A stretch of DNA of 64,000 nt, from contig NC_091147.1 of NCBI RefSeq assembly GCF_041381155.1, forward strand, positions 10,004,837-10,068,836, given 5' to 3'. The stretch is from Argopecten irradians (lineage: Eukaryota; Mollusca; Bivalvia; Pectinida; Pectinidae). The position numbers and the translations under genes were made by a program. Positions 5,288-60,346 of the stretch are shown in pieces. How positions within the stretch are numbered: position 1 is the first letter of the stretch; the number at the start of each line of letters is the position of its first letter. The notes beneath the pieces are model-generated. The model ran no database searches. It was not told where the DNA came from and saw nothing but the letters and a program-made list of their open reading frames with translations.

Positions 5288-8200
5288 TCACCGCATGAAA
5301 ATGTCTGTATTTCTGAAACTTGAATTGTCTCTGAAAAGATAAAGAATAAAAACATTAAAATATTGTTAATCTTAGACAGGAGCATGCTTAGAGACATTGC
5401 ATATGGTCATTATATGCTACATTTTAAAGCAACTTGTTTTCTTTTTAGACTTTACATGTACTTAAATCATACCAGCATTCTTTCTTTTTTTCTCTCTTTC
5501 TTTCCATCTTTTTCTTTCTTTTACTCTTTCTTTAAACTGTACTTCTTTATACTTTCATTATGAGCTATTTTTAAAAGAAACTTTCTTTCTGTCCTCATTC
5601 CATTGGTCCTCATTCCATTGGTTATACTTAAATCCACATACTTAAATCATACTGTCATTATGTGTTATTTTTAAAAGAAACTTTCCTTCTTTCATATTGC
5701 TTTCTTTTTCCTCTTTCTTTCCATTTTGTTTTTTCTTTCACTCTTTCTTTAGAATATACTTACTTCATACTGTCATTAACAGTATGCGTTATTTTTAAAA
5801 CGCAACTTTCTTTCTTTCCATATTTTTCCCCCTCATTTTTAGACTATACCTACTTCGTACCTTCATTAATGAGCTATTTTTAAAAGCAACTGTCCTTCTT
5901 TCCTCTTTCTATATTTTTCTTCTTTCTCTTTCTTTCCATCGTTTTTTACCTTTACTCTTTCTTTAGACTATAATTTCTTTAAACCATTATGAGCTATTTT
6001 TAAAAGCAACTTTCATTCTCTTTTCTATATCTCCTTCACTCTTTCTTTCTCTTTCTTTATACTTACCACATACTATTATTTTGCGTTATTTTTAAAAGCA
6101 ACTTTCTCTCTTTCCATCTTTCTTTCTTTCACTAATTCTTCTGACTATACTTACTTCATACTGTCATTGTGTGTCTTATATTCCATGATCGTGTTAGGAG
6201 GCAGATTGAGGACACGTTTGAGAGTATCACGGATCCTTGACGTTGTAACAGTGTCACTAGCCGTCCGATTCCATAATGCTAAAATATCCTCCTGTAATAA
6301 ATCATGTTGTAATAAATATGACATTTTTCCATTTGACATTTGCAATCAAAGACAATGGCAGAACATCATAGATATCAAATAAATATAAAACAGTCTTCAT
6401 ATTTCAATAAGCTGTGAATCATACAAGATATTAAACCAGTCAAAGTTTCACACAAGAAATTTTAAATCAAAGCAGTACATCACAGGTATAAAACATATTC
6501 TGTCATCATTCTACAATGTGTAGTTCCACACTTTAATATCAGTATCCCATCTACCTGATATCTAATCGAGATCACAGCTCCACAGATTTCCTCCCCGACC
6601 ATGAACTGTTCCCCGAGCATGGCCAATACTAAATTTTCCCAGCATCGTGACGCTAGGCCTTTCTTTAGACGTACAATCCATTTACCTCCCTTGTTATTAG
6701 CAGTGTCCTGAAGTCAATTGTAGATCATTAAAGAATACATCATAATGTATTGAAATAAAGAATTATCTTCCCTTGTGGATAGGGCCGTTTTCGTTTATTT
6801 GAAACAACTGGTTTGACCGTTGGTAAAAGTCATTATTTCAAGTATAAATCCTGGCGGACTTGCAATTTTTGATACAGGCCTGTGAGGGCTTTGTCAAGGC
6901 TCGTCTAAAAACAATATAAAATCACCAGGTCCGTCTTTAATTAATAAACGAACAACTATGTCCAACCAGTCAAACTGTATAATCAAAAACAGCCCAGGTA
7001 TTGATATATATAGTGACTTCATGTGTTTGCAATCATTAAGTCATTGTTTTCAGAGAAAACCATCTGAGCTTCACTCACGAAATAATGACGTCACAATTGA
7101 TACCTTCCTGCAAGGGAGATAACTCTACAATAAAAGTTAGTAGCCAGCTAGCTAGTAAATATCAATACAACTTTTTCTTCTTTTATAAATTTTCAGCCTG
7201 TTAGCCATCCTCAGGTACATGGAAACAGAAACAATACAGCGTGCCCCCTGACGTTCTCTCATCAGGGGTAAAGTGTACCCCTCCTCTGAAAATTTTAGGG
7301 GTACAAGCATAAATCTTGGGGTACAACCAAAATTTAAACAATCATGAAGCATTTAATATTTTGTTGGTAGAAGGACTCACAAAGAAATCGCTAATTGTAC
7401 ACTTTTTAGACGGCTCCATGTTTACAACATCGGACAAGTAAACACCACTGGTGTTACGCCTTACGATCTTTAGTGTGTGATAGTGCCCATAATCAAATAG
7501 CAAAACATTATTCAGGTTAGGAAATAACCTAGATCGATGGGTCGTCATGATCAGCCAATCAAACTGTAGGGCAATTGCCAGTAGCAACCAGCTTATAGAA
7601 AGATCAGGACGATGTTGTCTCGTCATTTCTTCTGAAAATTTTAATACATGTGTATATAATTATAAATAACAACTGTTTTCAGTTTTTACACCCATTTCAT
7701 TAGCTTTTACACCCATTTTATCGTACGTGCAGTGTACCCTCGGCCTCCAATTTGTGTACATGCATATTACTTTTGATGCGTGAATCACGTACACCTGTAC
7801 GTAACGGGGCACGCTGACAATAGGCCGATAATTTAAGACATTTGCACTATTAATATTAATTTAAAACAGTAATAATCTTATACCTTTCATTACCGTCCCA
7901 AATGACCATTTATAACATAATTTGATCTCTGTATGACCACTTTGCTATGGAGAGCATTCCCCCCCCCCCTGTCCGTTGGGTGGTCTTTATAGACAGGTTT
8001 GATTGTATTTCTCATGTGCATAACCACATGTAAAACCCTATCTTCTGGAGATTTTTGGACTGTAAAAAAATGCTATACCAACCTCCCACATAGGCCGGAT
8101 GCCTTCCTTGAATATGTGATAGTCGCTGTGTCCTGTCAGGTCGCTTGGCCTTACTAGATGACTGTAATGATTCCACCACTGCTCCACCTAGGATAACAAG

Positions 8201-11200
8201 GGACATAACTCTGCAGGTGTTTTTAGAGTCTGTTTTAATTAATTGTTTCTCAATATTTGTAACAATAATTGCAAAACAAGTTATATTATCTTATATTTAT
8301 CTTGTTGCCTCTGTAAGTGTATGAAAAATGTATAAATTCATAAATCATATTATTCACTTTGAAATGGTCATCAACGAACAAAACTTACAGATGCAAAAGT
8401 TGTGATGAGTTTGAGATTCTGATTGTAGCTTGAAGCTGATGACTGTTTCCCTGGAGCTTTCCGCGAAAACCAAACTGCATAATTAAACTGTAATGGGTGT
8501 TCTCCTGGTCCTGGTTTCTGTAAAGTTAGAAAACAATCAAAATACTTATGTATCAAGGTAATTATGTCAATATCCTTTTTGTGCTAAAATTATATAGGAA
8601 ATGTGTATTAAACAAGACAAGTTTTGAAGAAGTTGCTGTTTATGACAAATATCTTGAACTTTGTAATTCCAAAGCTCTTCACTTTATGATATGTCACAAT
8701 ATGGTGTTACATTATTTCCATATATCATCATTCTTACAGGTGTGGGCCGGGGTCGTGGAGAAAGTTCGTCGTCTCTGTCTTCATATCTTTGATCTGGAGT
8801 CTCATTTTCTTCTTCCCCACTGTCTTCTGTTTTAAGTCTAAAATATAGAAAACAATTTCAAAGTTGTTTTAAATAAGAAAGTTTACTTAAATCCAGAAAG
8901 ATATCTTCTTCTTTTACCTATTAAGTACATGAGGATGAGAGATTTAAGAGATCAATTGTACTTTACCCGTAAGAGTTCTGACATTTCAAAAGAAAAACAG
9001 CTTAGGGCTCAATTTCTAGTCTCATCCAATGGATGTCAGTCTAACAATTTGTATACAGGGTTTTCATTATCAGGTGGTACCCGGTACATTTTTCCGGTTA
9101 ATTATGCCTGTGGTGCCGAATGATTTGGGCTAAATTACATTAGATAGCATACAGATATCATAGAAAAGTACCCCTGAAATTTTAATGGTACCGCCTCTCC
9201 TGAAAGATAATGATACCCCTGTGTATATAAATGTTAATCTAGAATTTCAAGGTATCTTGTAGTGTTGTATTGATGATCGGCAATAATCGATTAACTGGCT
9301 AGATGACCCTCGACCGATCCAATGATCGATTGAAAATGTCATAATCGATCATCGGGAAAAAAATTTAACTCATTGGGAATCAAAAAATTTTCTATTAAAA
9401 ACCTAAAATACACTGAAAACTCCCTAACATTCCTCCATGTCAATAATTTTCACCAAATACAGTCAAAAACCAGGCCTCAAAGTTGAGAGAAATTTACTCG
9501 CATATGCGAGTAAATATTCCCAAAGGCGAGTTAAAATTAACAATGTATCGCCAAACGGCGAGTAAAAAATTCCTTAATATTTCCGGATTTATTTTATGTG
9601 TTCGGTTCTTTTAATAGTTACACATATCTAATCTGTGTAAGAAAAGCGCTTAAAAGCATAATCACTGCCTGCTGTAAAGCGTCTTGATGACCCTACCTCA
9701 TGTATCAGTAGCAATATGGCGGCAAAAAGGCCGGGGCAAATCCCCCTGACTTGTTTTGGCTTTAAAAAGTCAAAACAAACAGAGAACAATGGCAGTTTTG
9801 ACTCTGGATTCATGTGAAAAAAGGGACTGAAGCCAATACATCAACAGGAAGCAAACGCTTCGACATGGCTGAACGAATGTTGTGGCCAAGACATGACGAA
9901 GGTACGATGTTCTGAAAGATGTGTAAACAGGTTATTAATTGATCAATGGCCGGCACAAAAAACAAGTTTTGAAGAAGTTGCTGTTTATGACAAATATCTT
10001 AAACTTTGTAATTCCAAAGCTCTTCACTTTATGATATGTCACAATATGGTGTTACATTATTTCCATATATCATCATTCTTACAGGTGTGGGCCGGGGTCG
10101 TGGAGAAAGTTCGTCGTCTCTGTCTTCATATCTTTGATCTGGAGTCTCATTTTCTTCTTCCCCACTGTCTTCTGTTTTAAGTCTAAAATATAGAAAACAA
10201 TTTCAAAGTTGTTTTAAATAAGAAAGTTTACTTAAATCCAGAAAGATATCTTCTTCTTTTACCTATTAAGTACATGAGGATGAGAGATTTAAGAGATCAA
10301 TTGTACTTTACCCGTAAGAGTTCTGACATTTCAAAAGAAAAACAGCTTAGGGCTCAATTTCTAGTCTCATCCAATGGATGTCAGTCTAACAATTTGTATA
10401 CAGGGTTTTCATTATCAGGTGGTACCCGGTACATTTTTCCGGTTAATTATGCCTGTGGTGCCGAATGATTTGGGCTAAATAATATTAGATAGCATACAGA
10501 TATCATAGAAAAGTACCCCTGAAATTTTAATTGTACCGCCTCTCCTGAAAGATAATGATACCCCTGTGTATATGAATGTTAATCTAGAATTTCAAGGTAT
10601 CTTGCTAATTGCTACCTTTCTGACTTTATTTAACAACCTACTGTAGATTGTGTTGTATTGCTGCATGGTCGAATTTGCCACCAGCACAATATTTAACAGA
10701 TGAAAACTTCACAGAACTAAAAGCCGTTTTTGATTACACATGTACAGTTTGACAGGTTGGACCTAAATATTAGTTTATAAATTAAAGACGGACCTAGAGA
10801 TTTTTCTTTTTCCAGGTACTGGTAATCTTTAATTTTTTGTCATGAAGGTCTGTGGATACAGAAAGAAAGAAGACAAGCCTCGAGAATGCGCTCACATGTC
10901 TGTATTAAAAACTGCAGATCCGTCAGGATTTATAATTGAAATGCAGTCAAACTGTTCTTTGGATTAAACAAAAACAACCTAGGTGTTATGACCATCATAC
11001 CACCTTCACCCAGGACTCTACCATATCAGTAAGATTATATAGGTCAACCAGAGTTACTTGTTTTGACAAAGAGTCGTTTTAACAAGTTTAGTTAATGACC
11101 ATGTTCTTTAACTTCTATGTTTGTCAATAAATTTAGTTTATATAAATTCTATTATACTGCACCATTAATCAAATACTAATAAAGTTCATCAGTTATCACA

Positions 11201-11950
11201 AATTCAGAACGAATGTTCTCCAAGATTCATTTCATAAATATGTCAGCTGATTTGTCGAACCTTATGACCTTAAATGTAAATAACAAGCAAGAAAACTTGA
11301 TCAAACCTGTTTTGTTGATTTTCTGGCTTCATCTTAACGATTTTTGTTCCACGTTAATTTTGATAATGTTGTCTCTCTATTTCAAAACACCATATGTTCA
11401 GATCTGACCCCGTTATAGCTCTGCCGGCAAGTTACACAGAGTCAAAAGTTTCTCCCAAAACTCTCATAAGCTACCACGTGTCTGAGCATAGACAACAACG
11501 CTGTTCTTTCATTGGTTACACCGATTTAATTTGGCACAGATCTAGAGGAATACATTTTTTGAACAATAAGTGATATGCTCATTTTTTTAATGTCTCTAAA
11601 AAAACTTACCTTACATTATATCTTTCACCAGACAAATTTATCGAAGGTATTATTTTAATAAACAAAATCGAAAAGGATAGCACGACCTCATAAATGTAAG
11701 CGTATCGCACATTGTGACGTCACAAACTGAGTTCACTCAACCGAGCAGAATCTGGCAGTCTCTCGCGGAGTGATCGCCGACAAGCACCTGAGGGCTAAAT
11801 GTTTGCCGTCAAGTAACAGCGATCTATTGGTCTAGCCAGATAGTATAGCAATATCAAGAGAGAGAAATACCAGCCTGTCACGCATGTGCTACAAATGATT
11901 GCAAATTAAGATATTAAAATGGAAACTTACGCATCGAATTTGTTGTTCAT
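5288..11950 (-). CDS. EIF4E2: Eukaryotic translation initiation factor 4E type 2 (4EHP), seven coding exons
   Basis: Cap-binding paralogue of eIF4E. In the family it competes for the mRNA 5' cap without recruiting eIF4G, usually with GIGYF partners, and so represses translation. Exons in transcription order: 11931-11950, 8738-8837 (or its copy 10083-10182), 8389-8517, 8083-8187, 6555-6707, 6155-6291 and 5288-5330. Phases join cleanly to 228 residues (human about 245). It starts MNNKFDALK, close to human 4EHP. Landmarks are HPLQFNYAVW (residues 47-56), RPMWE with the cap-stacking Trp at 117, SRCWENLVLAMLGEQFMVGE in exon 5 and LNLPPNTIMEYKTH in exon 6. The predicted C-terminus (KDNSSFRNT then IFMR and stop) is an alternative tail rather than the longer MPGRLGPQ tail; I recall a similar tail in 4EHP isoforms. 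Exon 1 faces MED4 across a 140-bp divergent promoter. The intron after exon 6 starts with a repeat array copying its donor. Confidence 0.94.
5451..6168 (-). repeat. Degenerate array of donor-site copies in EIF4E2 intron 6
   Basis: About seven units of roughly 90-120 bp, each carrying a variant of the exon 6/intron 6 boundary within CT-rich filler and a TTATTTTTAAAAGCAAC block. The clearest copy, at 5755-5777, matches 6146-6168 exactly over 23 nt. That match covers 14 nt of exon 6 and 9 nt of intron, including GTAAGTATA on the minus strand. Other copies lie near 5540, 5640, 5850, 5970 and 6060. The true exon is the first unit in transcription order. Confidence 0.75.
8617..9259. repeat. 643-bp direct duplication containing EIF4E2 exon 2, copy A
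   Basis: Nearly identical to 9962-10604 at a constant offset of 1345 bp. By eye there are about five substitutions and no indels. It includes the whole 100-nt exon 2 with both splice sites and several hundred bases of flanking intron. Confidence 0.95.
9260..9961. repeat. Spacer between the EIF4E2 exon 2 duplicates, possible hAT-like remnant
   Basis: A 702-bp unique segment separating the two 643-bp copies. Its left end, TAGTGTTGTATTGATGATCG followed by several AATCGATT/ATCGATC motifs, resembles the ends of hAT-type DNA transposons. No transposase is visible. The transposon reading is an inference from these end motifs only. Confidence 0.35.
9962..10604. repeat. 643-bp direct duplication containing EIF4E2 exon 2, copy B
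   Basis: Partner of 8617-9259. The second copy of exon 2 is at 10083-10182, with intact acceptor, 100-nt coding body and GTAAG donor. It lies upstream in transcription, between exon 1 and the other exon 2. No differences were seen within the exon itself. Confidence 0.95.
10083..10182 (-). CDS. EIF4E2: Duplicate copy of EIF4E2 exon 2
   Basis: Same 100 nt as 8738-8837, encoding the acidic N-terminal segment LKTEDSGEEENETPDQRYED and following residues to RPTP. Both splice sites are intact. Exon 1 contributes 20 nt, so either copy alone restores frame (120 nt). Including both would shift the frame, because 100 is not a multiple of three. The copies must therefore be mutually exclusive for a full-length product, and they encode the same protein. 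Confidence 0.8.
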
Positions 11951-12090
11951 TTTCTGTGTTTACTCCGGAACACACTGCTCCTCTGAAATGGTGAATGTTA
12001 GCTTATCACTGATTGGCTGAGCGGTTCTCACTTCCTTTGCGATTCCATCATCTGAAACATGATTGGTTTATGGACTCAAGGAAAGCAAAT
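11951..12090. promoter_or_regulatory. Divergent promoter between EIF4E2 and MED4
   Basis: Only 140 bp separate the EIF4E2 ATG (minus, 11950-11948) from the MED4 ATG (plus, 12091). Inverted CCAAT boxes (ATTGG) lie at 12012-12016 and 12062-12066, and an ETS-like CTTCC lies near 12031. The MED4 start overlaps ATGGCGGC, which resembles a YY1 site. No TATA box is obvious, which suits a housekeeping bidirectional promoter. Start sites themselves are not visible. Confidence 0.65.
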
Positions 12091-15000
12091 ATGGCGGCAA
12101 TCAGCACCAAACAGATGCTACTGCAGCTTATAGAAGATACCGAAATAATATCTAAGTAAGGTTATTTAAAGTCACAAGTACATAATTATTTTATTCCGTT
12201 AAGTGAACAAACAACATTTACCTAAATAGCAATTACCTTTTTTCAGGAAAGCACAGGGTTCCTTTTAGTCTGGCCATTGAAGTCCATTGTCATATTAGAA
12301 AATGTTATTGTGATGTTTAGAAACGAGGAATATTTTAGTACAGGATTACCAGAGGATATTGTCGAATTGTCAAAATTTCTTATGCTTCTTCTGACAATTT
12401 CTATACATGTTCATCCCCTGTTATTTAAAACTAATAGATCTAAATTAATATTAATAAAAAGCTAAGCCAGTATCGACTGTAGGTTGGAGATTTTCTCTGT
12501 GTTGTCAGTTTTCCTCCATGTTTCAAACTTGCCACTTTCTACAGTTAGATAAAACAAGATTAACTGATATAATATAGAGAGCACAGACAGAACGGGCCAA
12601 ATGCAAAGCAAACTCTTGTGGTAGAGATGTCTCGGGGTCACATATTTTTTGATGAAGTGAAAGTAGAAGACAACTAATGATAATCTACGCTAAAATTGCT
12701 TTTCTTGTTATAAACTCAATGCCAGGAATTCAGCAAGGCCATGTTTCTAATATAAAAGATGGATTTTAGCAGTACAGTAAAATAATACACAATAAACAAT
12801 GACTTGAATAAGAACGAGACACATGACACTACAAGAGACCAGTTGGCTTATGGATCAAGGGAGATTACTGTTACGTCGCTGGAAACCTTTCTATATTTAC
12901 TTGTCATCAAAATCATCTAAACTGCATTAATTGCAATCATATATTACTATTTGGTAACAGTTTATAAAAAAAAAAAAAAAAAACCAATGGATTTAGGGTT
13001 CTGCTGCACTCTCAGATTGGCTTTGCCTAAAATTATTTACCCATATTTGACCAAATGAGCAACCAGGCCAGGATGCTAAAATAATTGACAAATAATGAGA
13101 GGGAGCAAATTGATGGCACAAAGTAATCTTAAATCAATTTGCAAAAGAAAGTAGTTTTTCGTTCGTTCGTTGCAATTCAATTTAAGGTACATGTATATGA
13201 CATTGAGGCTTCCAAAAAAGGAAACATGTGCTTATTAGGTGAAATTCGGTAATGAAATTATAAACAATGCATGATGAATGTTAATTTCTGGAATGTTAAA
13301 ATCTTTATGTAATTATAGGTTACCATATATATACGTATTAATTCAGTTACGACAACACTTTACATGTATGAAGGATTATACTTCATTTAGAATTTAAAAT
13401 GCTTGTTTTCCTCCTTTGAATAGGGAAATTTTTGAATTGATGAGCACACCAAAACAACAACAGCGAGCTGATGCGCCTGAAACACAAAAATTGATGGAAC
13501 TATTGGTCTTAAAAGATAAGGAAATCAAGGAGAATCTTAAAATAGGTAGTGTACTTCACATTGTTTTGTATATTTTTTTTAAAGTTTAGTTTTCCTAAAA
13601 TCAAATGAATGATCTTTATTTAATTCATTTGTAAACAAATGATAATTTTTCTACGTTTTTTCTAAGTGAAATGAATAACTAAATTAGATAGATCAGAATG
13701 CTATCAAAGGGGCCTTGAAGACTGGGACTTAGATATATAAAGTTGTTGGGTTGTGGGTCCATGGGCCTTTTACTTTAAAAAATAGAAACACACTAATCAC
13801 AAAAATTAAGTTGACATCCAATCAAACAATTACCAATATATATATTTTTGTATTGTACAGCTGCAGAGCAAGCAGAGATACAGAAAACAGTAGATGAACT
13901 GAAAACAGAAGTAGACAAACGTGATGCAGATATTAGGAATCTTCAAAAGAATCTCAAAGAAGCAGAAACTATATTGGTATTTTTTTTTTTTTTTTTTTTG
14001 TATTAACGTTATTAGGAAGCTAACCAGTCAATGCTTTACAGTGAGTGTATAGGTGTGATAGGTGAATGAAACAAGAAAAATAGCTGCTTCTATCTATCTT
14101 TTTTATTACTTCAGGAGCATCGCCACACAGATTACTGGGTCAAAAATTGAACCCCTGTCAATACAAAAGCCTTTGTATAGATATATTGTTCAACAATACA
14201 CACAGTTGAAATAGCAATTATTTAGACCGCGTACATACAATTATTTGAATATTCCGCGTTCAATATATTATCTATATTATGAAGAACATACCTTTGACTA
14301 TCATGGTGACGTAGTCCAGATAAACGTCTCGTTTAATATGTTGTCCGACGTAAACCTGTAGATTTCACCCTTCATCTCCCTGGCTAATGCGCCGCTCCCC
14401 TCTTACACACCACTTAAATACACATACAAACAGGCCCCTTTTCACGTGTGAACTCTCATGCTTTAGCTGACACATCCATACATACCTGGACACAACTGGA
14501 CGAACAGGTTACAGGTAAAAATAGACATAACATTTCAGTGGTCCCTCAATAATCCGGACACCTTCATTCCCAGCCTAAACCGTCCGGATTACGAGTTTTC
14601 CGGACCGCTGAATTCCATGTTCTTCGTCAATTAAATTGTCAGGTACGAGTTACTCCCCTTGACCTTGTAATCGATGATAGGCTTTTATGTAATGTACGTG
14701 TATTACAATTAATACTTCTTTTGATATGTTTTATAGGTATTTTTATATCATTACGTTAAGAATATTAAATAAACGTATTTCTTTTTCAAAATACGAAACC
14801 AAAAGCCATTGTTAATTGTGTACTATGTATGCATATTGCTACGTATTCCACCCTTCATCTGTCGTACGGCAAATTGCCTAACAAAAGATCAATATCATCA
14901 GAGTTCTTGGCATAAAAAACTATGAAAAAAAAAGTTGTGAACATTTTATAAACTCATATAAATATTATTTTGTATAATGTGTGATTTTAGTGACCATTTC

Positions 15001-18000
15001 TACAAGTCTTAAATTGCTTTCTGATTTAAAAAACGTATGTAACAACCACGCGCCTGTTCACATCTAACTTTGTGCACAATGTCACACACGTGTAAATGGC
15101 ATGTGCCGTAGCCTTTATATCTTATACCACAGACGATGAATTCGAATATATTCACATACATTTAAAACTCTTTATTAATTTTGTGAGTATTATCTCACTA
15201 TATTGTATTCGATACTCAAAGCGATATATTCTGCATGCGAAACAAATAAGGTATCTACAGCAGACGTACCCGTACCCAAGCTCAAACTGCATGTTTAAAA
15301 GCGTGTGGCTAAAATAATATTGCGTATCTTAATTTTAGCACTTAAGTTTGATCTCCTAAAGAAAACCAATGAACCGTTACATGACTGCATGTACCCGTGT
15401 GAAAGGTGTTCAGGTAAATGCCCGTGGCTATGACCTGGCAGCCGTCGTTATGACAACCCACTCAGTGTCAAGTGATAGTGTGTATTGTACACATGAATGT
15501 AGCTGGCCTTGGATTTTCTCGGCATGTGTCGACAACAAATTGCGGGAATTTATTAACGAAAATTACATTCCGTTCCCAAAATTGAGTTCTGGATTCGGAA
15601 AACGAATTTCCGGACTAGTGAGTATAAATAACGTTATGGAAATTCGTTCCCTGACATTTCCGTCCGGATTGTGAGTTTTCCGGACTATCGGCGTACGGAT
15701 TATTGCGGGTTCACTGTACATAACTACTGGACGCACATGGACACATACTATAAATAGACACACAAGTAAACAGATCACACTCACTGTAAACAGTGATCCA
15801 CATATATGGAACACGTGACAATATATATAGGATCTTACATGAGTGTTCATTTCATATGAGATTTTATGAAACGTGTCTAAGAAGTTTTAATTTTTGCAAG
15901 CCTTGGCAAGCAAAAATTAAAACTTTGACACGAGTTTCATAAAATCTCATATGAAATGAACACAAATTTAAGATACTTTTCATCACATAACTACATATAC
16001 ACTGAGGTGTTCCCGATCTGGAGTGGACACTTCAAGATGGCGGCCGGTTCGGAACAAAAAAGGTAAGTGTCGCACACAAAGTGAGGTTTCTGCAGAAATA
16101 AGGAGCCGATTTTTCCATAGCAAGGCTAGATTTTGAGATAATTTAACAAGGAACACGCACATCCATTCCTCTGGATCCATTATTACGTTTTATGGTTGTA
16201 TCACTGCTCAGAAGTAGGCGTTAGCTGCGATTTAAAAATCGAAGCGTAACAATCATTGTAAACATGCGATTTTCGGACGTTTTGATGCTTATATACTGAA
16301 TGATTCATCATGTATATCACAAAATGGCGTTTCTACTTAATTCTGGCAAAGCACAACTCATTTGGTCAACTTATTAATTAGTTATCAATGTTTAAACAAT
16401 TTCGCATTGACACGGAGTGGACCCTGAAAATTTACGATCTTTTAATCATGGAGTGGACTCGAAATTTTGGGTACGGAGTATACTTTTTGGATACGGAGTG
16501 GACTGGGCAATTGTAATCTCAAAAGGCACATGGAAAGCCACTGACAGGAAGCATTAAAGTGTTCATACTGTCATCACAATTAATAGTGAATCACTAAATC
16601 ATAATGATATACTTTAGCATGGCTTTGAAATATTTTATTACTTCATAGTTTTACGAAATATTTAACAGAGTTTTTAATGACTCAAGAAGAGAAAGTTCTC
16701 TGATAAGTTTTTTTCGGTTAGGTGCTGTTGTGCAAAAATCATAATCATTCATGTTCATGTATGTTGATTTACTTGATAAAGAAACCAAGTTGTTTTACAA
16801 GTGAAATTGTTTTATTCTTTCATAGCATCGATCAACACTGATTATTGTTTTTCACAAAAAAGTATCGCTGTCTTTGCGATTTGGACCTAAATACACTCAT
16901 TCACAGTCTTAAAGATGGAGTCCACGTCTAACATGTGAAAGGGTTTTGGTGTCGTGGGCTCGGTGAAATTCCCTAACTAAAAAGCGGTTTTCTTGAAGGT
17001 TCATCTGGCTTGCTCACGTTTCCTTTTCTTCGTTACCTCGCACCTCTTGCCCTTTCTACTGCATAGAACTCATGGTCCCTACAAACATCAATTATTAATT
17101 AATACAATTATCGTAAAACGAAAGTAATTTAATGCAAGTCATATGAATATCATACCGTGCACATGAATGGATGTAATTATTATCATTTACAATTGTCCAC
17201 TCCGTATCCAAATGTGTCCACTCTGTATCCAAAAAGTATACTCCGTACCCAAAATTTCGAGTCCACTCCGTGATTAAAAGATCATAAATTTTCAGGGTCC
17301 ACTCCATGTCAATGCGAAATTGTTTAAACATTGATAACTAATTAATCAGTTGACCAAATGAGTTGTGCTTTGGCAGAATTAAGTAGAAACGCCATTTTGT
17401 GAAACATTTGGTACATAAGCATCAAAACGTCCGAAAATTGCATGTTTACAATGATTGTTACGCTTCGATTTTAAAATCGCAACTTACGCCTACTTCTGAG
17501 CAGTGATACAACCATAAAACGTAATGATGGATCCAGAGGAATGGAAGTGCGTGTTCCTTGTCAAATTCTTTCAAAATCTAGCCTTGCTATTAAAAAAATC
17601 GGCTCCATATTTCTGCAGAAACCTCACTTTGTAAATGACACCTACCTTTTTCGTTCTGAACCGGCTGCCATCTTGAAGTGTCCACTCCAGATCGGGTACA
17701 CTGCAGTGAAATACCTAAATAAGAAAGAATTTCACGTCAAAATGTATTCCAAAAATCAGCAGATAGATTGTTTCTGTCTGACGTCATAATGAATTTCCAG
17801 CCAATGAGAATCACTCCAGGTCATATTACACTAGTGGCAAAATCACTGGATATCAGGCGGATTATGTGATAAATACACATATTTAACCCTACAACATATG
17901 TAATGTAGATTTATTAGAGCACTGTGTTCTTTGAGGCCCATTGGGCCGCAAGTAAAGCTCTCTGATACCTTTTAAAAGAGTTGCCTCCCCTTTCCTGTTA

Positions 18001-20432
18001 TGATTAAAAGGAAATGTGTTATTCAAAACCAAAATAATTTCAAAATCAAAGTAATCATGCCTTTTGAATTCAACACTGCAATTAAATCAAAAGAACAAAA
18101 AAAATAACATTCGCATACTATTTATATCCAGTATGTTGCCTTTTTCTTGTGAAAAAACAACCTTTGTCTGAAATGATTTTCTTGCAACAGCTAGATTCTG
18201 AATAATGACACAATAATCTAGAACTTTCAGCACCTGCATTTCCAAAAGTTTCACCAACTAAATGAAAGTTAATATAGGTTACACAGGATATAAATGATCT
18301 TTTAGAGTGATTATTTGAAATTAAAGTTACGTAGGAAACTTTACATTAAATATCAGGAAATTCATTGAAGATTGGTAGAGAGTGACCTCCAACTTCAAAG
18401 GGTTGATAGTGTACTGTTATACTTTGTTAATGTACATCAATGGATCAAACTACCTGTCTTAACTGTTATCACACACAGAGCCTTCAGTTTTACTATGACA
18501 TAGTACATGGATTGATATAACGACAGTGATAGTAACCCTTGGAGGATTTTTGTCTTGTCACATTTTCATGACAACTTGAACTAATTATCATGTCTAATTG
18601 AAATGTTGATTTTACAGTCCACAGCTATTTACCAAGCCAAACAGAAACTAGAAGCCATAAGACAAGCTAATAACCAGACCATAGCGTCAGAGGAATTAAT
18701 CAAATTTGCCCACAGAATCAGTGCCAGTAATGCTGTAGCTTCCCCACCAACATGGACTCCTGGTAAATGTCTTTAGTAAATCATATATCGTTTCCTAAAT
18801 GTAGCTACTGAATTGTTCAGTTTCTATACGGTATAGTTGTTTAATTTTGCGAGGAGATCATTTTGCAATTTCCCCTTTGATACTTCTTCATGGGGAGAAA
18901 TGTTCACTTTTGTTTATTTCTAACAGTAAAAAGTTAATCTAAATATTTTACTTGTAATCATATCATTTCTTTGTCAAATTAGATAAACTAATACAAACAA
19001 TATTTTCCCTTGTAAGAAATTTGCCAAGGTTAGCAGTTCAGGTGTGATGGGTCAATATACAGAGGAATGGTATATCCCTGTCTTTATATACAATACTGAA
19101 AGCTGCTATCAACCACCAACTGGCTACTAAAACTAATAAATTAGGGCTCTTAGTGGCCTACTTCAACACACATTGACTTAACTCGTCTTCAAGATAAAAA
19201 TTTTATTTAGCATCTGAACATTTTGTTGTGTGGTGTCAAGCATCATCAAGAAAAGTGCACAAAACCCTAAAATTCTACATAAGCTATTGTATTGTTCTTT
19301 TGATTGTCTTTACAAACTGGTCTGACAGCTTACTGTAATGTTTATCCTAGGTGATCCCAGGAGGCCCTACCCCACTGACTTTGAGATGAGACTGGGTTTC
19401 CTTGGGAAATGCAGTGGTGACTTGCCTATGAATGGTCAGCAGTTACAGTCACAGGGGTCGTACGGAGAACCGATGTCCAGTAACAGGACATCCGCAGTAT
19501 TAGGAGGTAAGGGTCGTTCTCAGGAAAATATGTGGGACCAGCGGACAGCACTTTAATAAATAATGAGTGTTGGGCATTGATCAGATTAAAATAATTTTTC
19601 GGTGGTGTTTGGATGAGGTTTGTTTGTTTGATTAATTAACGTCCTATTAACAGCTATGGTCATGTAAAAACGGTCTCCCTTGTATGAGGTGTGTTGCATG
19701 TAAGTTGTGCAAGGGTGTGTTTGGGGAGACTGCGATATATTCATGTTGATACTGTTGTTGGGTTATGGTTTGTTTTGGCAACCTAGATAATATACAGATA
19801 CACTTTACCTAATATTTCCTGTCAGATCACCTATGTATGTTTGTATAAATGTCAATGGGTAGTTAAACTTAAACATACAAAGTGGTTGTATAAGTTCAGC
19901 TTGAGAAGATTGATAGGCACACTCAAGGTTTCCTAAAGGCCTCAACATGTATAACTATTAATCTTATTTTTCTCATGGCAATAAGATACAATTTATTGCT
20001 AACTAAAAACATGAAAACAGATATGTTGTTTTATTGCAATAGAAATTTCTTTGATATGGTACAAACTTTGACACTGTCTCTCCTTACTTTAAACGATACT
20101 TTGATATTTCAAAATTTTATCAAATGTAGAATAGAATGACTTGGTAGATGTAACAAAGTTTACAAGCCAGATGTATTCAATGTTTTAAGCTAATTCTTGC
20201 ATCCACATATCACTCTACTCTTGTTTGTTTTTATCACACAGAGCCAACATCTGCAAGTACACCTTCCTCAGTATCGTCATGGCAACCAGCACCGGAGCTA
20301 CATCATTCGTTGTCCACAGGAAGTGGAGGTGCGTCAGGTTTCTTGACGGAGATAAAGGGACATAATAAGGAGAACGAGGATGTGGGATTTATGTCCAGTG
20401 ACTCGTCAAGCAGTTCATCAAGTGATGAATAA
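12091..20432 (+). CDS. MED4: Mediator complex subunit 4, six coding exons
   Basis: Core subunit of the Mediator middle module, which links transcription factors to RNA polymerase II in the nucleus. Exons: 12091-12155, 13424-13545, 13861-13976, 18618-18762, 19351-19506 and 20242-20432. Phases join to 264 residues (human about 270). The first 100 residues are largely helical, matching the MED4 coiled-coil ([16 protein letters not shown], then [18 protein letters not shown] with minor variation). Exon 4 has [12 protein letters not shown] and exon 5 opens [14 protein letters not shown], both family hallmarks. The end, [15 protein letters not shown] plus a serine run, matches the acidic Ser-rich human tail. 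AATAAA at 20428-20433 overlaps the stop codon. Intron 3 (4.6 kb) is full of transposon-like repeats. The start is supported by position, family similarity and the ATGGCGGC context. Confidence 0.96.
14536..15716. mobile_element. Non-autonomous DNA transposon with CAGTG ends (pogo/Tigger-like)
   Basis: The left end CAGTGGTCCCTCAATAATCC is mirrored by the right end, whose reverse complement begins CAGTGAACCCGCAATAATCC. Both ends carry further copies of CGGATT...GAGTTTTCCGGAC. Ends of the form CAGTG followed by AATCCGGAC resemble the pogo/Tigger branch of Tc1/mariner. No transposase was recognised; the 101-residue open frame inside looks accidental. The element lies in MED4 intron 3. Confidence 0.6.
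15843..15963. repeat. Hairpin-forming inverted repeat, about 59-bp arms
   Basis: GTGTTCATTTCATATGAGAT at the left is the reverse complement of the right end. Pairing continues through a TTTTAATTTTTGC block to a tiny centre near 15902, with a few mismatches. It is MITE-like in size and lies in MED4 intron 3 directly before the 16.0-kb inverted-repeat element. Confidence 0.8.
16000..17708. mobile_element. 1.7-kb element with about 500-bp terminal inverted repeats
   Basis: The left arm (about 16000-16515) is the diverged reverse complement of the right arm (about 17192-17708). The outer ends are CACTGAGGTGTTCCCGATCT and, on the other strand, CACTGCAGTGTACCCGATCT. The inner arm parts carry repeated GGAGTGGAC motifs. 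The centre (16516-17191) is unique and AT-rich, without a recognisable transposase. Each arm holds an outward-to-inward ATG stretch ending in a GTAAGT or GTAGGT donor (left: ATG at about 16036, MAAGSEQK). It sits in MED4 intron 3. Superfamily is unknown; target-site duplications are not obvious. Confidence 0.75.
19625..19745. repeat. Dispersed repeat with AACGTCCTATTAACAGC core
   Basis: ATTAACGTCCTATTAACAGC followed by GGTCATG and a CTCCC block. A related copy is at about 40960-41060 (AATGCCCTATTAACAGC). Shorter traces containing GGGTCATTTAAGGA occur near 28435 and 29432. The element class is unknown. Confidence 0.5.
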
Positions 20433-21094
20433 AATTATTTATTGTCTGTAGATTTGACAGTGTTTTTAATTGTGAACTAAATGATTGTGTTCTGTTGAGA
20501 ATGGATATTGAATTGTGTATTTAAATGTTTTACCTGATTGTTAGTCTACCAGGTAAATTGACATTACTACCCCATGACTTCCTTAACTTTGACTGGTGTC
20601 ACTGTAAACATATAAATTAGCATTAATCCTATTTTAACCCTTTTCATGCCAGAAATTGTGCGCTAAATATGAGTGCATTAATTGTATTTTCTAAATATTG
20701 TATGAATAACCGTCATGTAGACACCACTAAATCAACAATACACACACTTGTTCAAGGTACTATTTGTACTAAAATAGGATCATGTCTATATAATGTATGT
20801 TTCCTTTAGCAGTTATTTTCAGGAGGATCATCTTTTCGTAATTAGGAAGACCAAACGAAATATGATATGTAAAAATTGACATTTAAAGTGAATAGTCTAG
20901 CAAAGGAAGGCTAAAGTCGGTTAAATGGTGTTGATATATCCAGTATCATTTCTTATGAAATAGGAAAAAAACCTTTCCCGTCAAAATCGCTTCCGAATGC
21001 AAAGAAATTGATTTATATTAAAGGAATCCTTAAGATCCTTCCGACTGGCTATGTCCATGTTACATTCCCACGTAGAATTTTTAGAACTGTGCTA
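20433..21094. other. MED4 3' flank
   Basis: No coding signal. The segment 20885-21060 belongs to a dispersed repeat whose second copy lies at 41366-41520 in U2SURP intron 2. Shared motifs are GGCTAAAGTCGGT, TTTCTTATGAAATAG and GGAATCCT. Confidence 0.55.
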
Positions 21095-23129
21095 ATTGCT
21101 AGACATATGAGTGGATGGTGACTTTCTACCTAGACATATGAGTTGATGGTGACTTTCTAGTAAGACATATGAGTTGATGGTGACTTTCTAGCTAAACATA
21201 TGAGTTGAAGGTGACTTTCTAGCAAGACATATGAGTTGACAGTGACTTTTCGAGCAAGACATTTGAGTTGACAGTGACTTTCTAGCAAGACATATGAGTT
21301 GATGGTGACTTTCTAGTTAGACATATGAATGGTGACTTTCTAGCTAGACATATGAGTTTAGTGACTTACTTTTAAGACATGAGTTGACTGACTTTAGCAA
21401 GACATTTGAGCTGACGGACTTTCTAGCAAGACATATGAGTTGAAGGTGACTTTCTAGCATATGAGTTGAAGGTGACTTTCTAAGACATAGGAGTTGACAG
21501 GGACTTACTATTAAGACAGATGAGTTGATTGGGACTTTCTAACAAGACACATGAGTTGACAGTGACTTTCTAGCTAGACATATGAGTTGATGGTGACTTT
21601 CTAACTAGACATATGAGTTGATGGTGACTTTCTAGCTAGACATATGAGTTGATGGTGACTTTCTAGCTAGACAAATGAGTTGATGGTGACTTTCTAGCTA
21701 GACATATGAGTTGATGGTGACTTTCTAGCTAGACATATGAGTTGATGGTGACTTTCTAGCTAGACATTTGAGCTGATGGTGACTTTCTAGCTAGACATAT
21801 GAGTTGACAGGTGACTTTTACAAGACTGAGTTGACAGGACTTATATTAAGACATATGAGTGACAGTGACTTTCTAGCTAGACATATGAGTTGATGGTGAC
21901 TTTCTAGCTAGACATATGAGTTGATGGTGACTTTCTAGCTAGACATATGAGTTGATGTGACTTTCTAGCTAGACATATGAGTTGATGGTGACTTTCTAGC
22001 TAGACATATGAGTTGATGGTGACTTTCTAGCTAGACATATGAGTTGATGGTGACTTTCTAGCTAGACATATGAGTTGATGGTGACTTTCTAGCTAGACAT
22101 TTGAGTTGACAGTGACTTTCTAGCTGAGACATATGAGTGATAGTGAGTGACTTTCTAGCTAGACATATGAGTTGATGGTGACTTTCTAGCTAGACATATG
22201 AGTTGATGGTGACTTTCTAGCTAGACATATGAGTTGACAGTGACTTTCTAGCTAGACATATGAGTTGATGGTGACTTTCTAGCTAGACATATGAGTTATG
22301 GTGACTTTCTAGCTAGACATATGAGTTGATGGTGACTTTCTAGCTAGACATATGAGTTGATGGTGACTTTCTAGCTAGACATATGAGTTGATGGTGACTT
22401 TCTAGCTAGACATATGAGTTGATGGTGACTTTCTAGCTAGACATATGAGTTATGGTGACTTTCTAGCTAGACATATGAGTTATGGTGACTTTCTAGTTAG
22501 ACATATGAGTTATGGTGACTTTCTAGCTAGACATATGAGTTGACAGTGACTTTCTAACTAGACATATGAGTTGATGGTGACTTTCTAGCTAGACATATGA
22601 GTTATGGTGACTTTCTAGCTAGACATATGAGTTGATGGTGACTTTCTAGCTAGACATATGAGTTGATGGTGACTTTCTAGCTAGACATATGAGTTGATGG
22701 TGACTTTCTAGCTAGACATATGAGTTGATGGTGACTTTCTAGCTAGACATATGAGTTGATAGTGACTTTCTAGCTAGACATATGAGTTGACAGTGACTTT
22801 CTAGCTAGACATATGAGTTAGGTGACTTTCTAGCTAGACATATGTTAAGGTGACTTTCTAGCTAGACATATGAGTTGGACATGACTTTCTAGCAAGACAT
22901 ATGAGTTGACAGTGACTTTTCTAGCAAGACATATGGATTGACAGTGACTTTCTAGCAATACATATGGATTGAGAGTGACTTTCTAGCTAGATATAAGAGT
23001 GGACATGACTTTCTAGCAAGACATATGGATTGACAGTGACTTTCTAGCTAGACATTTGAGCTGAAAGTGACTTTCTGACAAGACATATGAGTTGACAGTG
23101 AAGTTCTAGCTAGAAATATGAGTTGACAG
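21095..23129. repeat. 31-bp satellite array, about 65 units
   Basis: Consensus GACATATGAGTTGATGGTGACTTTCTAGCTA split at any phase. Central units (about 21580-22800) are highly homogeneous, while both edges are degenerate and contain indels, a typical pattern of array homogenisation. Each unit contains CATATG and CTAGCTAG. It lies in the intergenic region 3' of MED4, with no coding meaning. Confidence 0.95.
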
Positions 23130-23730
23130 GCCAACCTACTATCCAATCCTCAAAGGTTTAATGCTTGAAATTTAACAAAAGGCTGGTGTTATTTACTGGG
23201 GATCCTCTAGAAACTATAGACTGGTGCTATTTTTCTCCAGGAGGGAATCCCGGAGAGAGAATGGAAACAATGACGACTCGATAATCTAGTAAATACCAGA
23301 TAAAGGTTGTTTGTACTGGATTAAGCACAGACTTGACAGAAAGAAAGCAGGTCTAGCACTTCTGTAAACAACTATAACCAATCTAACCACCAACATTGAT
23401 TGGTCTTTGGTCACACAAGATACATATACAGCAAGTTGGTGATATGTATATGTGGTGTTGTGTATTGTCTGTCAGGAGAATTAACTTCTTCTCAATAACC
23501 ATACAACACAGAGACTTCAGACTTGGTCTTTAGCATAATCTGATAAAGGACTACCAGGTTTGGTAATTTAAAATAAATGAATAACCTAGACATTTTGTTT
23601 ATGACCACAGCACTGTCTTACAAAATCTTGAAAACCAGAAACCACATGACTGAAAGATATGGGGTCTATATAGCATGCTTGGATGGAGACTATTCAAAAT
23701 GACAATGGTAAAATATGTAGGATTATTATC
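23130..23730. other. Intergenic sequence, nothing recognised
   Basis: Unique-looking sequence between the 31-bp satellite and the 312-bp direct duplication. Neither strand shows a coding exon or RNA gene. Confidence 0.5.
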
Positions 23731-24042
23731 GAAAAGGCCACATAATATTGGGCCTTGTAGCATGCTGAGATTAAGAACTACGTACCAAGTTTGTTCAAAT
23801 AAATAACCTTGACCTTTCATGAACCTGTAGATGGTCCAGGTGTGTTTGCACTGATGTTAGATATCAGTTTTATGAACATACCAGATACAGTAAAACATGT
23901 CTAGTTATCATGTTTAAAACAAATTCATGGTTATAATTTAGTATTTTCATTCACCATCAATGTCCCTATAAATTGTTTATAATATGTGCAGTCAGTTTGT
24001 TTTTACCGTACATTTTCATTTTTGAACAGAGAATAAGTGTTA
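23731..24042. repeat. 312-bp direct repeat, left copy
   Basis: Runs from GAAAAGGCCACATAATATTG to GAGAATAAGTGTTA and is nearly identical to 24513-24824. It directly abuts a dispersed repeat element that fills the gap between the copies. Confidence 0.9.
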
Positions 24043-32193: not shown

Positions 32194-35100
32194 TCACCAG
32201 TATAAAACAGGGCCCCACATCATGGAGCCGAGTGCGGCCCCAGCTACCATACCCATGGCCAAATCCCCTCCATCATAGCGACGACGGCCATACAGGTACT
32301 GGTCTTGTACATTGTTCACATAAACAATGTTGCTTGCAGGCTGATTAGCAGGTGGAGCCATAACTGTAAAGATATCAATGGTCAAAGCTCAAATTACACA
32401 TATAGAGGTCATCATAAGTAGAATTATAAACCTGGCTTTATTGTCCTTTAAAATACTGACCCCTATTATAATTCAGAGGTAATGAGTATGCATTTGAAAA
32501 CTCATTACTCAAGGCCCTTAGCATTACTTGCTACTCCTAGAGGGATTAAATACTTAAATTGTCATATTATAAATTCAAGTACTATCATTAATTTAAGATG
32601 CTCCACGCCGACAGAGCATAAACGACACCTATCATTCGAACAATAACTGATGTATAATTGTTTTTATATGTGTCTAATTCAGGCAAAAATGCATATAGAA
32701 TAATTCATTTTGCTTTTGGTGCATGCACAAGCAGTACTGAATTCCATATAGGGCATAGTGTAATGGAATTTTTTCGGGACGCAATTAATTATTTTTAATA
32801 TTTTATCATGAAATAAAATAAGAAGCTCAAACAATGGTGGTAATGGTGTAAAAAAAGTAATTTTTGTAACTGAAGGAAAATACTAATTCGTCTGCTCCTG
32901 TTTATGATAGAGAAGTCATGGAAGTATTGAGCTTAACATTTATGCAGGATTTCAATACTCATCAGTAAAACTGGGCCTAGTTTCACAAACATAAGGAATT
33001 TCGTAACTTAAAATTTTCCATAGAAAAGCATAACATATTTTATAAAGGAAGGCTCCTTGACCTAAGGCATTTTCCTTAACTTCTATAATGCTTTCCCGTA
33101 GGCAATTTTAAGTTAAGGGATTTCTTAAAGTTAAGGAATGTTCATAAAACTGTGCCCTGAAAATGTAACCTTAACCAAGGCCAGGTTCATTAACACAGTT
33201 CATTTTAAGGAATACCTTAACTTACAATATTTCATAGAAATGCATTACAGAAGTTAAGGAAAGCTCTTTGGTTAATGAGGTTTTTTTTAAGTTGATGAAT
33301 GTTGATGAGACCAGATCCTATGTTTGATAGGTACCTGTGGTATAGGGGGATGTAGATATCACCTGTCCTGGGTAGTAATACTGCACCTGTTGCCGTGGAT
33401 ACACTACACTGTTGGCGTTAGCAACCTGGTAGGGATAGGATCGTAGATCTGTAGCTATATTGGCCGTGTAGAGAGGAGGACCCGCCGTGTAGGGAGGGGG
33501 CAAAGCATGAACAGCAGAACCAGGGGGGAGAACTCTCGCCTCCTCTAACGCTATCTGCCATGCCCTGAAATAATAGAAACAGATCATTTCTCAATTTATA
33601 TTGGCAGTAATCTTTTTAACATTATCCAAAACAGTTTGTGACATTTTTCAAACAATACTTTTTCTAGTCAACAAGCTTAAGGGTACATGTAAACATTACT
33701 GTAAATCAAGTTAATTTTGCAAGCAATTTATTTTTGTGTATTTCGTGAGTGATTAGAATTTGTAAAAATAAATTGCTGTGAAAAAGATTCAACAGCGTTT
33801 TACCTATTAATGTTGTTAGACATGAAAACATGAAATGTAGTATGTAAATCTCATGCTGCCAAAAAGTCTAACAGTAAATATTCCTTACCTCATGTCGTCT
33901 GGGTCCTCAGCACAAAGTCGGAGTTCTCCATCTCGCAGGATCAATGTCAGGAGACAGTCTTTTGTCTTACCCTCTGGAGCTGAATTTTCACACTGTAAAA
34001 TAATTCCATCTTTGTTTATTTGGTGAGGATATTGACCAAGTTTTGGTTTGGTATATTAGATTTAGCATCTTATAATGTTTACTGTATGAGTTTGGAAATA
34101 CTGCCAATATAAATGTAGATGATCGGGCACGTAACCTCAAAACTGTTTACATCGCTGGGAATCAAACCCTTGTGGACCAGGTAAAAGGCGAAAGACTTAA
34201 CTAAACACCAAGTCACCCCATCCTTAACCACTAAACAACACCCAGTCACCCCATCCTTAACCACTAAACAACACTCAGTCACCCCATCCTTAACCACTAA
34301 ACAACACCCAGTCACCCCATCCTTAACCACTAAACAACACCCAGTCACCCCATCCTTAACCACTAAACAACACCCAGTCACCCCATCCTTAACCACTAAA
34401 CAACACCCAGTCACCCCATCCTTAACCACTAAACAACACCCAGTCACCCCATCCTTAACCACTAAACAACACCCAGTCACCCCATCATTAACCACTAAAC
34501 ATCACCCAGTCACCCCATCCTTAACCACTAAACAACACCCAGTCACCCCATCCTTAACCACTAAACAACACCCAGTCACCCCAGCCTTAACCACTAAACA
34601 ACACCCAGTCACCCCATCCTGAACAACTAAACATCACCCAGTCACCCCATCATTAACCACTAAACAACATCCAGTCACCCCATCATTAACCACTAAACAA
34701 CACCCAGTCACACCATCCTTAACCACTAAACAACACCCAGTCACCCCATCCTTAACCACTAAACAACACCCAGTCACCCCATCCTCAACCACTAAACAAC
34801 ACCCAGTTACCCCATCCTTTACCACTAAAAAAACACCCAGTCACCCCATCCTTAACCGCTAAACAACACCCAGTCACCCCATCCTCAACCACTAAACTAC
34901 ATCCTGTCACCCCACCCATTTTTACCACGGATGCTACCCAGCTGGTCTGCTTGTATGGCACTACACACAGCCTTAACACAGATACTCACCATCTGGCCTG
35001 CTTGTATGGCACTACAGTTAGCCTTTGTTTTACCACAGATAATCACCAGCTGGCCTGCTTGTATGGCACTACATACAGCCTTTACCACAGATACTCACCA

Positions 35101-36095
35101 GCTGGCCTGCCTGTATGGCACTATACCCAGCCTTTACCACAGATACTCACCAGCTGGCCTGCCTGTATGGCAATACACACAGCCTTTACCACAGATACTC
35201 ACCAGCTGGCCTGCTTGTATGGCACTACACACAGCCTTTTCTTTACCACAGATACTCACCAGCTGGCCTGCTTGTATGGCACTACACACAGCCTTTACCA
35301 CACATACTCACCAGCTGGCCTGCCTGTATGGCACTATACCCAGCCTTTACCACAGATACTCACCAGCTGGCCTGCCTGTATGGCACTACACCCAGCCTTT
35401 ACCACAGATACTCACCAGCTGGCCTGCTTGTATGGCACTACACACAGCCTTTGTTTTACCACAGATACTCACCAGTTGGCCTGCTTGTATGGCACTACAC
35501 ATAGCCTTTACCACAGATACTCACCAGCTGGCCTGCTTGTATGGCACTACACACAGCCCTCACCACAATTCTCGCCTCAGGTTCATGACTGTTAGGACTT
35601 TCAAAATATCTCAAGTCACCATCTTGGTATAACACAAACCAAGTTTTTTTCCAACGACGGAGTATAGTGCCTAAAAAATAACAAAAATTATTGTACCAAA
35701 GCTTATGTAAAAGACGTCTATAATCATCGACAACTTCTGACAAAATAGTATAACACTAACAATAAAATTAGGTACATTCCATAAAAGGTCCAATGAATAC
35801 CGGCATTTGTACAAATTTAAGTGTCTATTGCATAGACATAGTGGCTTTTCCAAACTGACCTTTGAATCAGGGGAGATATTTTTTCCTACTGTACAGGCTG
35901 TGAGGAAATTAACCTGTGTACATAACTACATACAGTCAAACTTGTCTATAATAAAGACCAGCCAAGTGGTCTTTATATTGTATACAGGTTGAATTAAAAA
36001 AAAATTGCATTATACTGCAATTGTCTAGCTAGGTTATGGTTATTTCACCTACTTTGACGATATAGCCATCCAGCTTTTGCAATTTCTAGTGTCAT
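32194..36095 (-). CDS. PLEKHB2: PH domain-containing family B (evectin), five coding exons
   Basis: Evectins are small membrane proteins with an N-terminal PH domain that binds acidic phospholipids, on recycling endosomes and post-Golgi membranes. Coding exons in transcription order: 36053-36095, 35525-35670, 33889-33992, 33335-33564 and 32194-32363. Phases join to 230 residues (human PLEKHB2 222). The PH domain spans residues 1 to about 105, with AGWLYRQSTILRRWKKTWFV near the start, KTKDCLLTLILRDGELRLCA in the middle and DPDDMRAWQIALEEAR in its last helix. A Pro/Tyr-rich segment follows. A C-terminal hydrophobic stretch (LAMGMVAGAALGSMMWGPVL) matches the evectin membrane anchor. The start ATG follows a CAG acceptor at 36109-36111, so an upstream non-coding exon must exist, probably near 37.1 kb. 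Exon 2 ends at the first donor of a 12-unit array. The B1 versus B2 assignment is not certain; the single invertebrate gene is probably ancestral to both. Confidence 0.9.
32593..32925. mobile_element. MITE family with TTAAAGATGCTCC ends, copy 2 (reversed)
   Basis: Starts TTAAGATGCTCCACGCCGAC and runs in the opposite orientation to copies 1 and 3, with GGTGGTAATGGTGTAAA and TCGTCTGCTCCTG in the body. The far end (near ATGATAGAGAAGTCATGG) is degenerate. It lies in PLEKHB intron 4. Confidence 0.65.
32975..33166. mobile_element. MITE-like element related to 26690-26882
   Basis: GGGCCTAGTTTCACAAACAT at one end and ATGTTCATAAAACTGTGCCC at the other, with inner AAGGAATTTCGTAACTTAAA and TTAAGTTAAGGG pairing. 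It lies in PLEKHB intron 4. Confidence 0.55.
33178..33312. mobile_element. Second adjacent MITE-like copy
   Basis: GGCCAGGTTCATTAACACAG to GATGAATGTTGATGAGACCAG, with TTAAGGAATACCTTAACTTA inside. It is a shorter, diverged relative of the neighbouring element, ending just after the exon 4 donor of PLEKHB (33334). Confidence 0.5.
34200..34917. repeat. 33-bp minisatellite in PLEKHB intron 2, about 22 units
   Basis: Consensus (plus strand) ATCCTTAACCACTAAACAAC followed by ACCCAGTCACCCC. The unit is 33 bp, so open frames run through on the minus strand with an 11-residue repeat (VVKDGVTGCCL). These are by-products of unit length, not genes. It directly abuts the 52-bp donor array at 34932. Confidence 0.95.
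34932..35567 (-). repeat. 52-bp array of PLEKHB exon 2 end plus donor, 12 units
   Basis: Each unit, read on the minus strand, contains the last 36 nt of exon 2 (GGCTGTGTGTAGTGCCATAC to GCCAGCTG), then GTGAGTATCTGTGGTAAA. The exon's own end (35525-35560) is the first unit in transcription order; eleven further units run into intron 2. Donors in the internal copies are mostly intact GTGAGT. The unit is 52 bp plus small insertions, so use of a downstream donor would usually shift frame. Long plus-strand open frames through the array are artefacts of repetition. Confidence 0.93.
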
Positions 36096-37226: not shown

Positions 37227-37259
37227 ATGGTACTAGCAGAATCTATTGGTGGAATAAAG
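37227..37259 (+). CDS. Possible alternative first exon of U2SURP
   Basis: ATG in a good context (ACAATGG) followed by ten codons (MVLAESIGGIK) and a weak GTGATC donor. It ends in phase 0, so it could splice in frame to U2SURP exon 2 at 41236. The start at 39428 looks more authentic because it matches human MADK. Alternatively this is chance. Confidence 0.25.

Positions 37260-39427: not shown

Positions 39428-60346
<20,919 letters not shown>

Follow-up and report, generated by a model that had tools for sequence, protein, structure and literature searches.

Minisatellites that span exon-intron boundaries have been described in amphioxus under the name of mirages. In the parts of one report available to us (PMC3087553), they are recorded in Adh3 (Canestro et al. 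2002, as cited there) and in the globin genes BflGb6 and BflGb9; both 5' and 3' boundaries can be affected, the data suggest that splicing is undisturbed, and intron gain from mirages is proposed. The available text of a second report (PMC3902484) adds the genes TnC and PGBD5, the first repeat of the latter abutting the 5' splice site. The arrays analysed here, in the scallop Argopecten irradians, share with mirages a boundary that lies within the repeat unit, occurrence at both 5' and 3' boundaries, and presence in unrelated genes with unrelated units. As in amphioxus, where according to the available text unit length runs from 10-72 bp in Adh3 up to about 160 bp in the globins, the units stand in tandem across the boundary and many of the copies, though not all, carry splice signals. 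Thus, the class is not an undescribed one, as a preliminary description of this DNA had supposed. The amphioxus cases, as far as the accessible text goes, were reported gene by gene in a chordate, whereas the present case concerns a bivalve, in which counts cover the whole genome, donors are in excess and arrays are long. Conversely, length and somatic instability, as well as splicing, were studied there, whereas the scallop arrays are known from the sequence of one assembly.

Two further systems invite comparison. In the portion of the source at hand (PMC2812944), tandem-repeat expansions in human segmental duplications are similar in that minisatellites may expand at exon-intron boundaries and so alter gene structure; unlike the scallop arrays, they belong to paralogues of recent origin in primates, roughly half of the repeats are coding, and that portion describes no systematic seeding at donors. 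The Rogers model of intron gain by tandem duplication of AG/GT proto-splice sites, as discussed in the available text of PMC3087553, likewise has duplication multiply splice signals, but the scallop arrays lengthen existing introns. Earthworm metallothionein introns (PMC12783039) were set aside as, on the accessible text, a different phenomenon. No report of such arrays in a scallop or other mollusc was found in the literature searched, most subscription papers being beyond reach. Mirages are apparently both new for a mollusc and abundant.

The window, by which we mean the whole stretch of 64,000 nucleotides analysed here, carries EIF4E2, PLEKHB, a MED4-like gene and U2SURP. Exons of the last were placed by scallop U2SURP proteins. 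For 21 of its 23 introns the boundaries follow from fitting the joined exons to the Pecten protein, and for the final intron from frame and consensus. Splice sites of U2SURP intron 8, EIF4E2, PLEKHB and MED4 were chosen by consensus, and a few of them may be off. The spliced U2SURP frame is complete, with 942 residues. Its best identity among the 120 matches listed is to A. irradians isoform X3 (89% over 77% of a partial query), which many of the exons match at 95-100%. The A. irradians U2SURP model P0002 begins within exon 4, directly beyond the array at exon 3, an example of how junction arrays may break gene models.

Arrays in the window were listed with TRF and then split into units around the donors, by eye and with a script (Table 1). 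Four clean donor-anchored tandem arrays were found, at U2SURP exons 3, 21 and 23 and at PLEKHB exon 2. In all four, the genuine exon end is the first unit in transcription order. The repeat unit includes the exon-intron boundary, here as in arrays elsewhere in the genome; that of exon 3 consists of the final 35 nt of the exon, whose coding ends at 42089, and 16 nt of intron. The preliminary description had counted a fifth array of this build at EIF4E2 exon 6. That case is weaker than claimed: the units are degenerate and purine-rich, with copies of the exon end still recognisable, TRF finds no period of about 100 bp, and just one downstream copy reaches 19/24 across the junction. A sixth array said to lie just past the exon 19 donor was confirmed. 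Two other arrays, the 23-bp array some way beyond the exon 15 donor and the 33-bp array of PLEKHB intron 2, had been overlooked.

Table 1. Junction-anchored and neighbouring intronic arrays. Positions are those of the window.
Feature	Position	Strand	Basis and remarks
U2SURP exon 3	41972..42089	+	Splicing to scallop U2SURP proteins; unit comparison; last 35 nt are the exonic share of the unit
U2SURP exon 3 array, 51-bp units, 18.3 copies	42055..42988	+	TRF, unit split; donor GTAAGT at 42090
U2SURP exon 21 array, mostly 34-36 bp units, 27.7 copies	57382..58343	+	First unit is exon 21 end plus donor GTAGGG at 57413; TRF, unit split, 24-mer junction test
U2SURP exon 23 array, 42 bp	59509..59906	+	First unit is final 8-9 nt of exon 23 plus donor GTATGT at 59518; TRF, unit split, 24-mer junction test
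PLEKHB exon 2 array, 52/57 bp, 12.2 copies	34921..35567	-	First unit is exon 2 end plus donor GTGAGT at 35524; TRF, unit split, 24-mer junction test
EIF4E2 degenerate units, roughly 90-110 nt	5451..6170	-	First unit is exon 6 end plus donor GTAAGT at 6154; unit split by eye and script
U2SURP intron 19 array, 20 bp, unit without exon sequence	55847..56695	+	Starts at 8th intron base; donor 55840; TRF and unit split
U2SURP intron 15 array, 23 bp, not donor-spanning	53257..53992	+	TRF; begins 93 nt after exon 15 donor at 53164
PLEKHB intron 2 array, 33 bp, no splice-site anchor	34204..34914	-	TRF; offset +610
Donor-anchored chaperonin arrays: C10, CCT gamma-like gene, 40 and 53 bp; C1, another gene, 97 bp			
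Acceptor-anchored chaperonin arrays: C10, 74 bp; C15, 57 bp			

The window holds other repeats as well. A 31-bp array of about 67 copies (21098-23126) lies downstream of the MED4-like gene, and downstream of U2SURP there are a 156-bp array (61921-63316), whose units bear the inverted motif GATGGC..GCCATC, and a 29-bp array (63501-63948). Pieces resembling these last two recur in translated open reading frames at about 3.0-3.4 kb and at 24 kb, which suggests a dispersed repeat. Coding sequence like that of EIF4E2 exon 2 is present twice, at about 8501-9230 and 9846-10575, with an offset of 1,345 bp and 87% identity over 8501-9200.

To compare the two kinds of splice site within the window, a 24-mer across each junction was searched for within 2 kb, a copy being accepted at 19/24. 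Of the 36 donors, 5 have downstream copies (17, 24, 7, 11 and 1 in number), and none of the 35 acceptors tested has any copy. The EIF4E2 exon 2 donor has one upstream copy, consistent with the duplication at the 1,345-bp offset. The difference between 5/36 and 0/35 gives a Fisher P of 0.054; an asymmetry between donors and acceptors is therefore not established from the window alone. Five of the eight intronic arrays span a donor, for which random placement gives P=1.5e-5 (at least five, one intron length being assumed), a flattering value because the window had been flagged for this very pattern.

Evidence of wider scope comes from pattern scans of the whole 846-Mb genome, in which the reversed pattern, equal in composition, served as control and copies rather than arrays were counted. 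Three GGTAAGT words at 20-50 nt spacing occur 26,318 times, against 7,483 for the reversed word, while the single word occurs 141,817 times against 129,344. From these counts, 18.6% of GGTAAGT head a tandem triple, compared with 5.8% of the reversed word. For the stricter donor CAGGTAAGT, triples number 3,383 against 101, a 33-fold excess, and for the looser form MAGGTRAG 28,695 against 4,387. About three quarters of the 100 CAGGTAAGT matches listed come from one stretch of C1. These scans bear out the earlier claim of unrelated units on both strands, as a class of donor-seeded arrays found throughout the genome.

Array starts were then examined for each of the seven distinct arrays among the GGTAAGT matches listed and for three of the four among the CAGGTAAGT matches listed (the stretch near C1:6.46 Mb and L040 were left out). 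The MAGGTRAG matches listed comprise six arrays, one being that of L037; the other five were left out of this reading. L038 lies inside its array, so that nine arrays were evaluable, and five of them (L003, L033, L035, L036 and L039) start at the end of a coding exon. Exon identity is backed by Pfam or PDB for an enolase (L003), an ABC transporter (L035, ABC_tran) and a guanylate cyclase (L039, Guanylate_cyc). The exon of L033 has a weak V4R match below the Pfam cut-off, and that of L036 has no Pfam or PDB match; the exons of L035 and L036, separated by 5 kb, can be read as parts of a single ABC transporter gene. At the remaining four (L025, L028, L034 and L037) no coding exon was found at the array start, a search that untranslated exons would escape.

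The same approach was applied to acceptors. Among those listed on C1 in the TTTTNCAGG scan, six of eight acceptor-motif arrays were read. Two of them, L041 and L044, have an acceptor as anchor and mirror the build seen at donors: the genuine exon start is the last unit, and the copies extend upstream within the intron. Both exons are open, with flanking splice signals, and have no database match (L041) or a weak one (L044). A third array (L042) reaches almost to an acceptor, a few tens of nt at most separating the two, and no clear coding exon is apparent at L043, L045 or L046. Together with acceptor-anchored arrays in chaperonin gene regions, described below, these cases led us to drop strict donor exclusivity. 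Thus, the absence of 3' splice site equivalents noted in the preliminary description holds for the window and fails as a rule. Likewise, the downstream run of copies that it noted at donors does not hold in general; with the genuine copy last at acceptors, the rule is one of intron side, not of polarity. Since exons are constrained, copies on the intron side are to be expected at donors and acceptors alike.

How large the donor bias is can be judged roughly. Counts for the acceptor motifs against their reversed forms, with the window acceptors that each captures, are 3,455 and 2,781 for TTTCAGG (ratio 1.24; 1/35), 1,068 and 1,316 for TTTTNCAGG (0.81; 1/35), 1,317 and 600 for Y7NCAGG (2.2; 0/35), and 68,535 and 55,518 for TTNNACAG (1.23; 5/35). 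The donor motifs GGTAAGT and MAGGTRAG each capture 2 of the 36 window donors. When excess is divided by coverage and the best-covered acceptor motif is set against GGTAAGT and MAGGTRAG, copies at donors are about 4 to 5 times as numerous as those at acceptors; TTTCAGG as the acceptor motif would yield a larger ratio. Because the acceptor motifs capture few real acceptors, the acceptor rate is poorly bounded and the ratio soft. There is, then, a rough donor excess in copy number, 3 to 5 fold, on small coverage counts. The directional donor bias proposed earlier stands in this form, as an excess in bulk copy counts measured against weak acceptor tests; as donor exclusivity it does not, given the acceptor-anchored arrays of L041, L044, C10 and C15.

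Pfam PF00118 finds chaperonin genes exon by exon irrespective of arrays, and eight of ten multi-exon chaperonin clusters, about 69 kb, were taken (C4, C451 and two single-match places were left out). C10 was examined first, an extended open frame common to its matches having suggested an array, so that the order was not blind, which hardly affects the set. Counting arrays with a period of at least 14 and at least 2.5 copies, the eight regions contain 12, of which 3 are donor-anchored, 2 acceptor-anchored (Table 1) and 7 neither. The five anchored arrays are short (2.6 to 5 copies), and Pfam or PDB identifies their exons as chaperonin, with peptide scores under the Pfam whole-protein cut-off, as is usual for short pieces. 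Junction anchoring of 5/12 compares with 12% expected (P=0.0095), the target size behind this expectation being a rough guess. All three junction-anchored arrays of C10, two at donors and one at an acceptor, belong to the CCT gamma-like gene (L055, C10:8990000-8998000). Several chaperonin exons on C10, C11, C13, C3, C4 and C1 lie in unusually long open frames (395-588 aa), for which the C10 arrays give no obvious explanation.

Eight arbitrary 10-kb stretches, 80 kb in all, contain 13 arrays with at least three copies. None of the 12 arrays tested there has an accepted coding-donor anchor, in a setting of few exon calls from a detector that recovers 10 of 21 known U2SURP exons. Three candidate donor anchors in L051 were rejected as lying within repeats, one (9.1 points) being wholly inside an array and two being weak. 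One stretch, from C3, is 70% a single 45-bp array of 155 copies (L050, 1-7012); the genome is array-rich in general. An early estimate from motif density, that about one in ten introns bears an array, was dropped, as neither the arbitrary sequence nor the chaperonin genes supported it.

It could be argued that nothing happens at junctions in particular: duplications would arise uniformly, and those that span a junction would simply survive like any intronic one, with no excess there. The general abundance of arrays in arbitrary sequence agrees with this, and so does the donor's place within the unit, which is varied rather than at the edge (a Kolmogorov-Smirnov test against a uniform distribution gives P=0.85 with n=9, and P=0.077 with n=12 when hand-read values are included and EIF4E2 is omitted). 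The latter indicates that the exon edge does not fix the break points, and a mechanism with a fixed donor spot in the unit was dropped for this reason. However, the 33-fold excess of CAGGTAAGT triples, the share of anchored chaperonin arrays and the placement of arrays in the window all point to an excess at junctions, and we regard tolerance on its own as unlikely. A contrasting proposal, one of two offered in the preliminary description, is that selection retains tandem donors. The benefit might be, for instance, U1 recruitment, slower splicing or the blocking of premature polyadenylation. Most later units do keep a donor-like GT (intact in the 11 aligned units of PLEKHB and the 7 of U2SURP exon 23), the donor columns of PLEKHB are slightly more conserved than the rest (0.987 vs 0.96), and the donor-motif excess is strong. 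In the U2SURP arrays, however, donor columns are no better conserved: at exon 3, changed positions number 2/153 in the donor and 17/714 elsewhere; at exon 21, donor columns (0.81-1.0) lie inside the range of the others; and at exon 23 they score 0.939 vs 0.951. With later donors about as conserved as the rest in these few arrays, and with acceptors amplified as well, selection for tandem donors finds no clear support and seems to us improbable.

The arrays might alternatively be exonised coding repeats, later donors being used so that the repeats add amino acids. The exon 3 array would permit this, being open in the coding frame to its last GTAAGT (42957); splicing there would be in frame, adding 289 residues to give a 1,231-residue frame without an internal stop. 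The translated array is, however, in none of the proteins found, those of Pecten and Mizuhopecten have a single copy, and of 12 unit lengths just 3 are divisible by three. Exonisation was dropped as a general function and is in our judgement very unlikely. Least credible is an assembly artefact. Tandem arrays are prone to misassembly; against this, the units differ among themselves in ordinary ways, several genes, spread over several contigs, carry arrays whose units are unrelated, and the similar repeats of amphioxus PGBD5 are, in the available text, backed by resequencing (PMC3902484).

Having weighed these possibilities, we consider it likely that the arrays are mirages, that is, junction-straddling minisatellites whose intron-side copies are tolerated and whose birth or survival is raised at true junctions. 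Their anatomy, genome-wide abundance, donor-motif excess and intron-side rule at both ends are observed. An array would be born as a short tandem duplication straddling a splice junction. Splicing would continue to use the exon-proximal copy, since the coding sequence relies on it; at donors, judging from the sequence, the first would thus be the one spliced. The extra copies would sit on the intron side, tolerated as inert intron, and the array may grow through unequal exchange or slippage. At acceptors, a mirror-image version of the same process is envisaged. Long arrays seem to develop more often at donors, probably since surplus downstream donors are easily ignored; surplus upstream AGs fall between the branch point and the exon and tend to be used first. 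Births at both junctions, with donor arrays growing longer, would fit both the motif ratio and the 3 vs 2 of the chaperonin sample.

That arrays are commoner at true junctions than in other DNA means that birth or persistence must be raised there, and a mutational bias linked to transcription or to strand skew would be the likeliest cause. Coding-strand GC skew over 50 nt is 0.28-0.70 at the five array donors, compared with a mean of 0.13 at 31 others (Mann-Whitney P=0.0045), and offers a lead, from few cases, towards R-loops or strand-asymmetric slippage. The mechanism acting at donors that had been suggested earlier survives in part, as a mutational bias that may act at junctions. A stronger version can be put forward tentatively, although we doubt it: a splicing- or transcription-coupled mutational process in scallops would seed duplications at junctions, at donors above all, and a few per cent or more of introns would carry donor arrays. 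If true, tandem donors would be in constant supply, introns would lengthen and new ones might be gained. Counting could test whether junction duplication feeds intron gain or alternative donors, and whether junctions are hot spots of tandem duplication. Mirages would thereby cease to be an oddity of a handful of amphioxus genes and become a measurable feature of a whole protostome genome.
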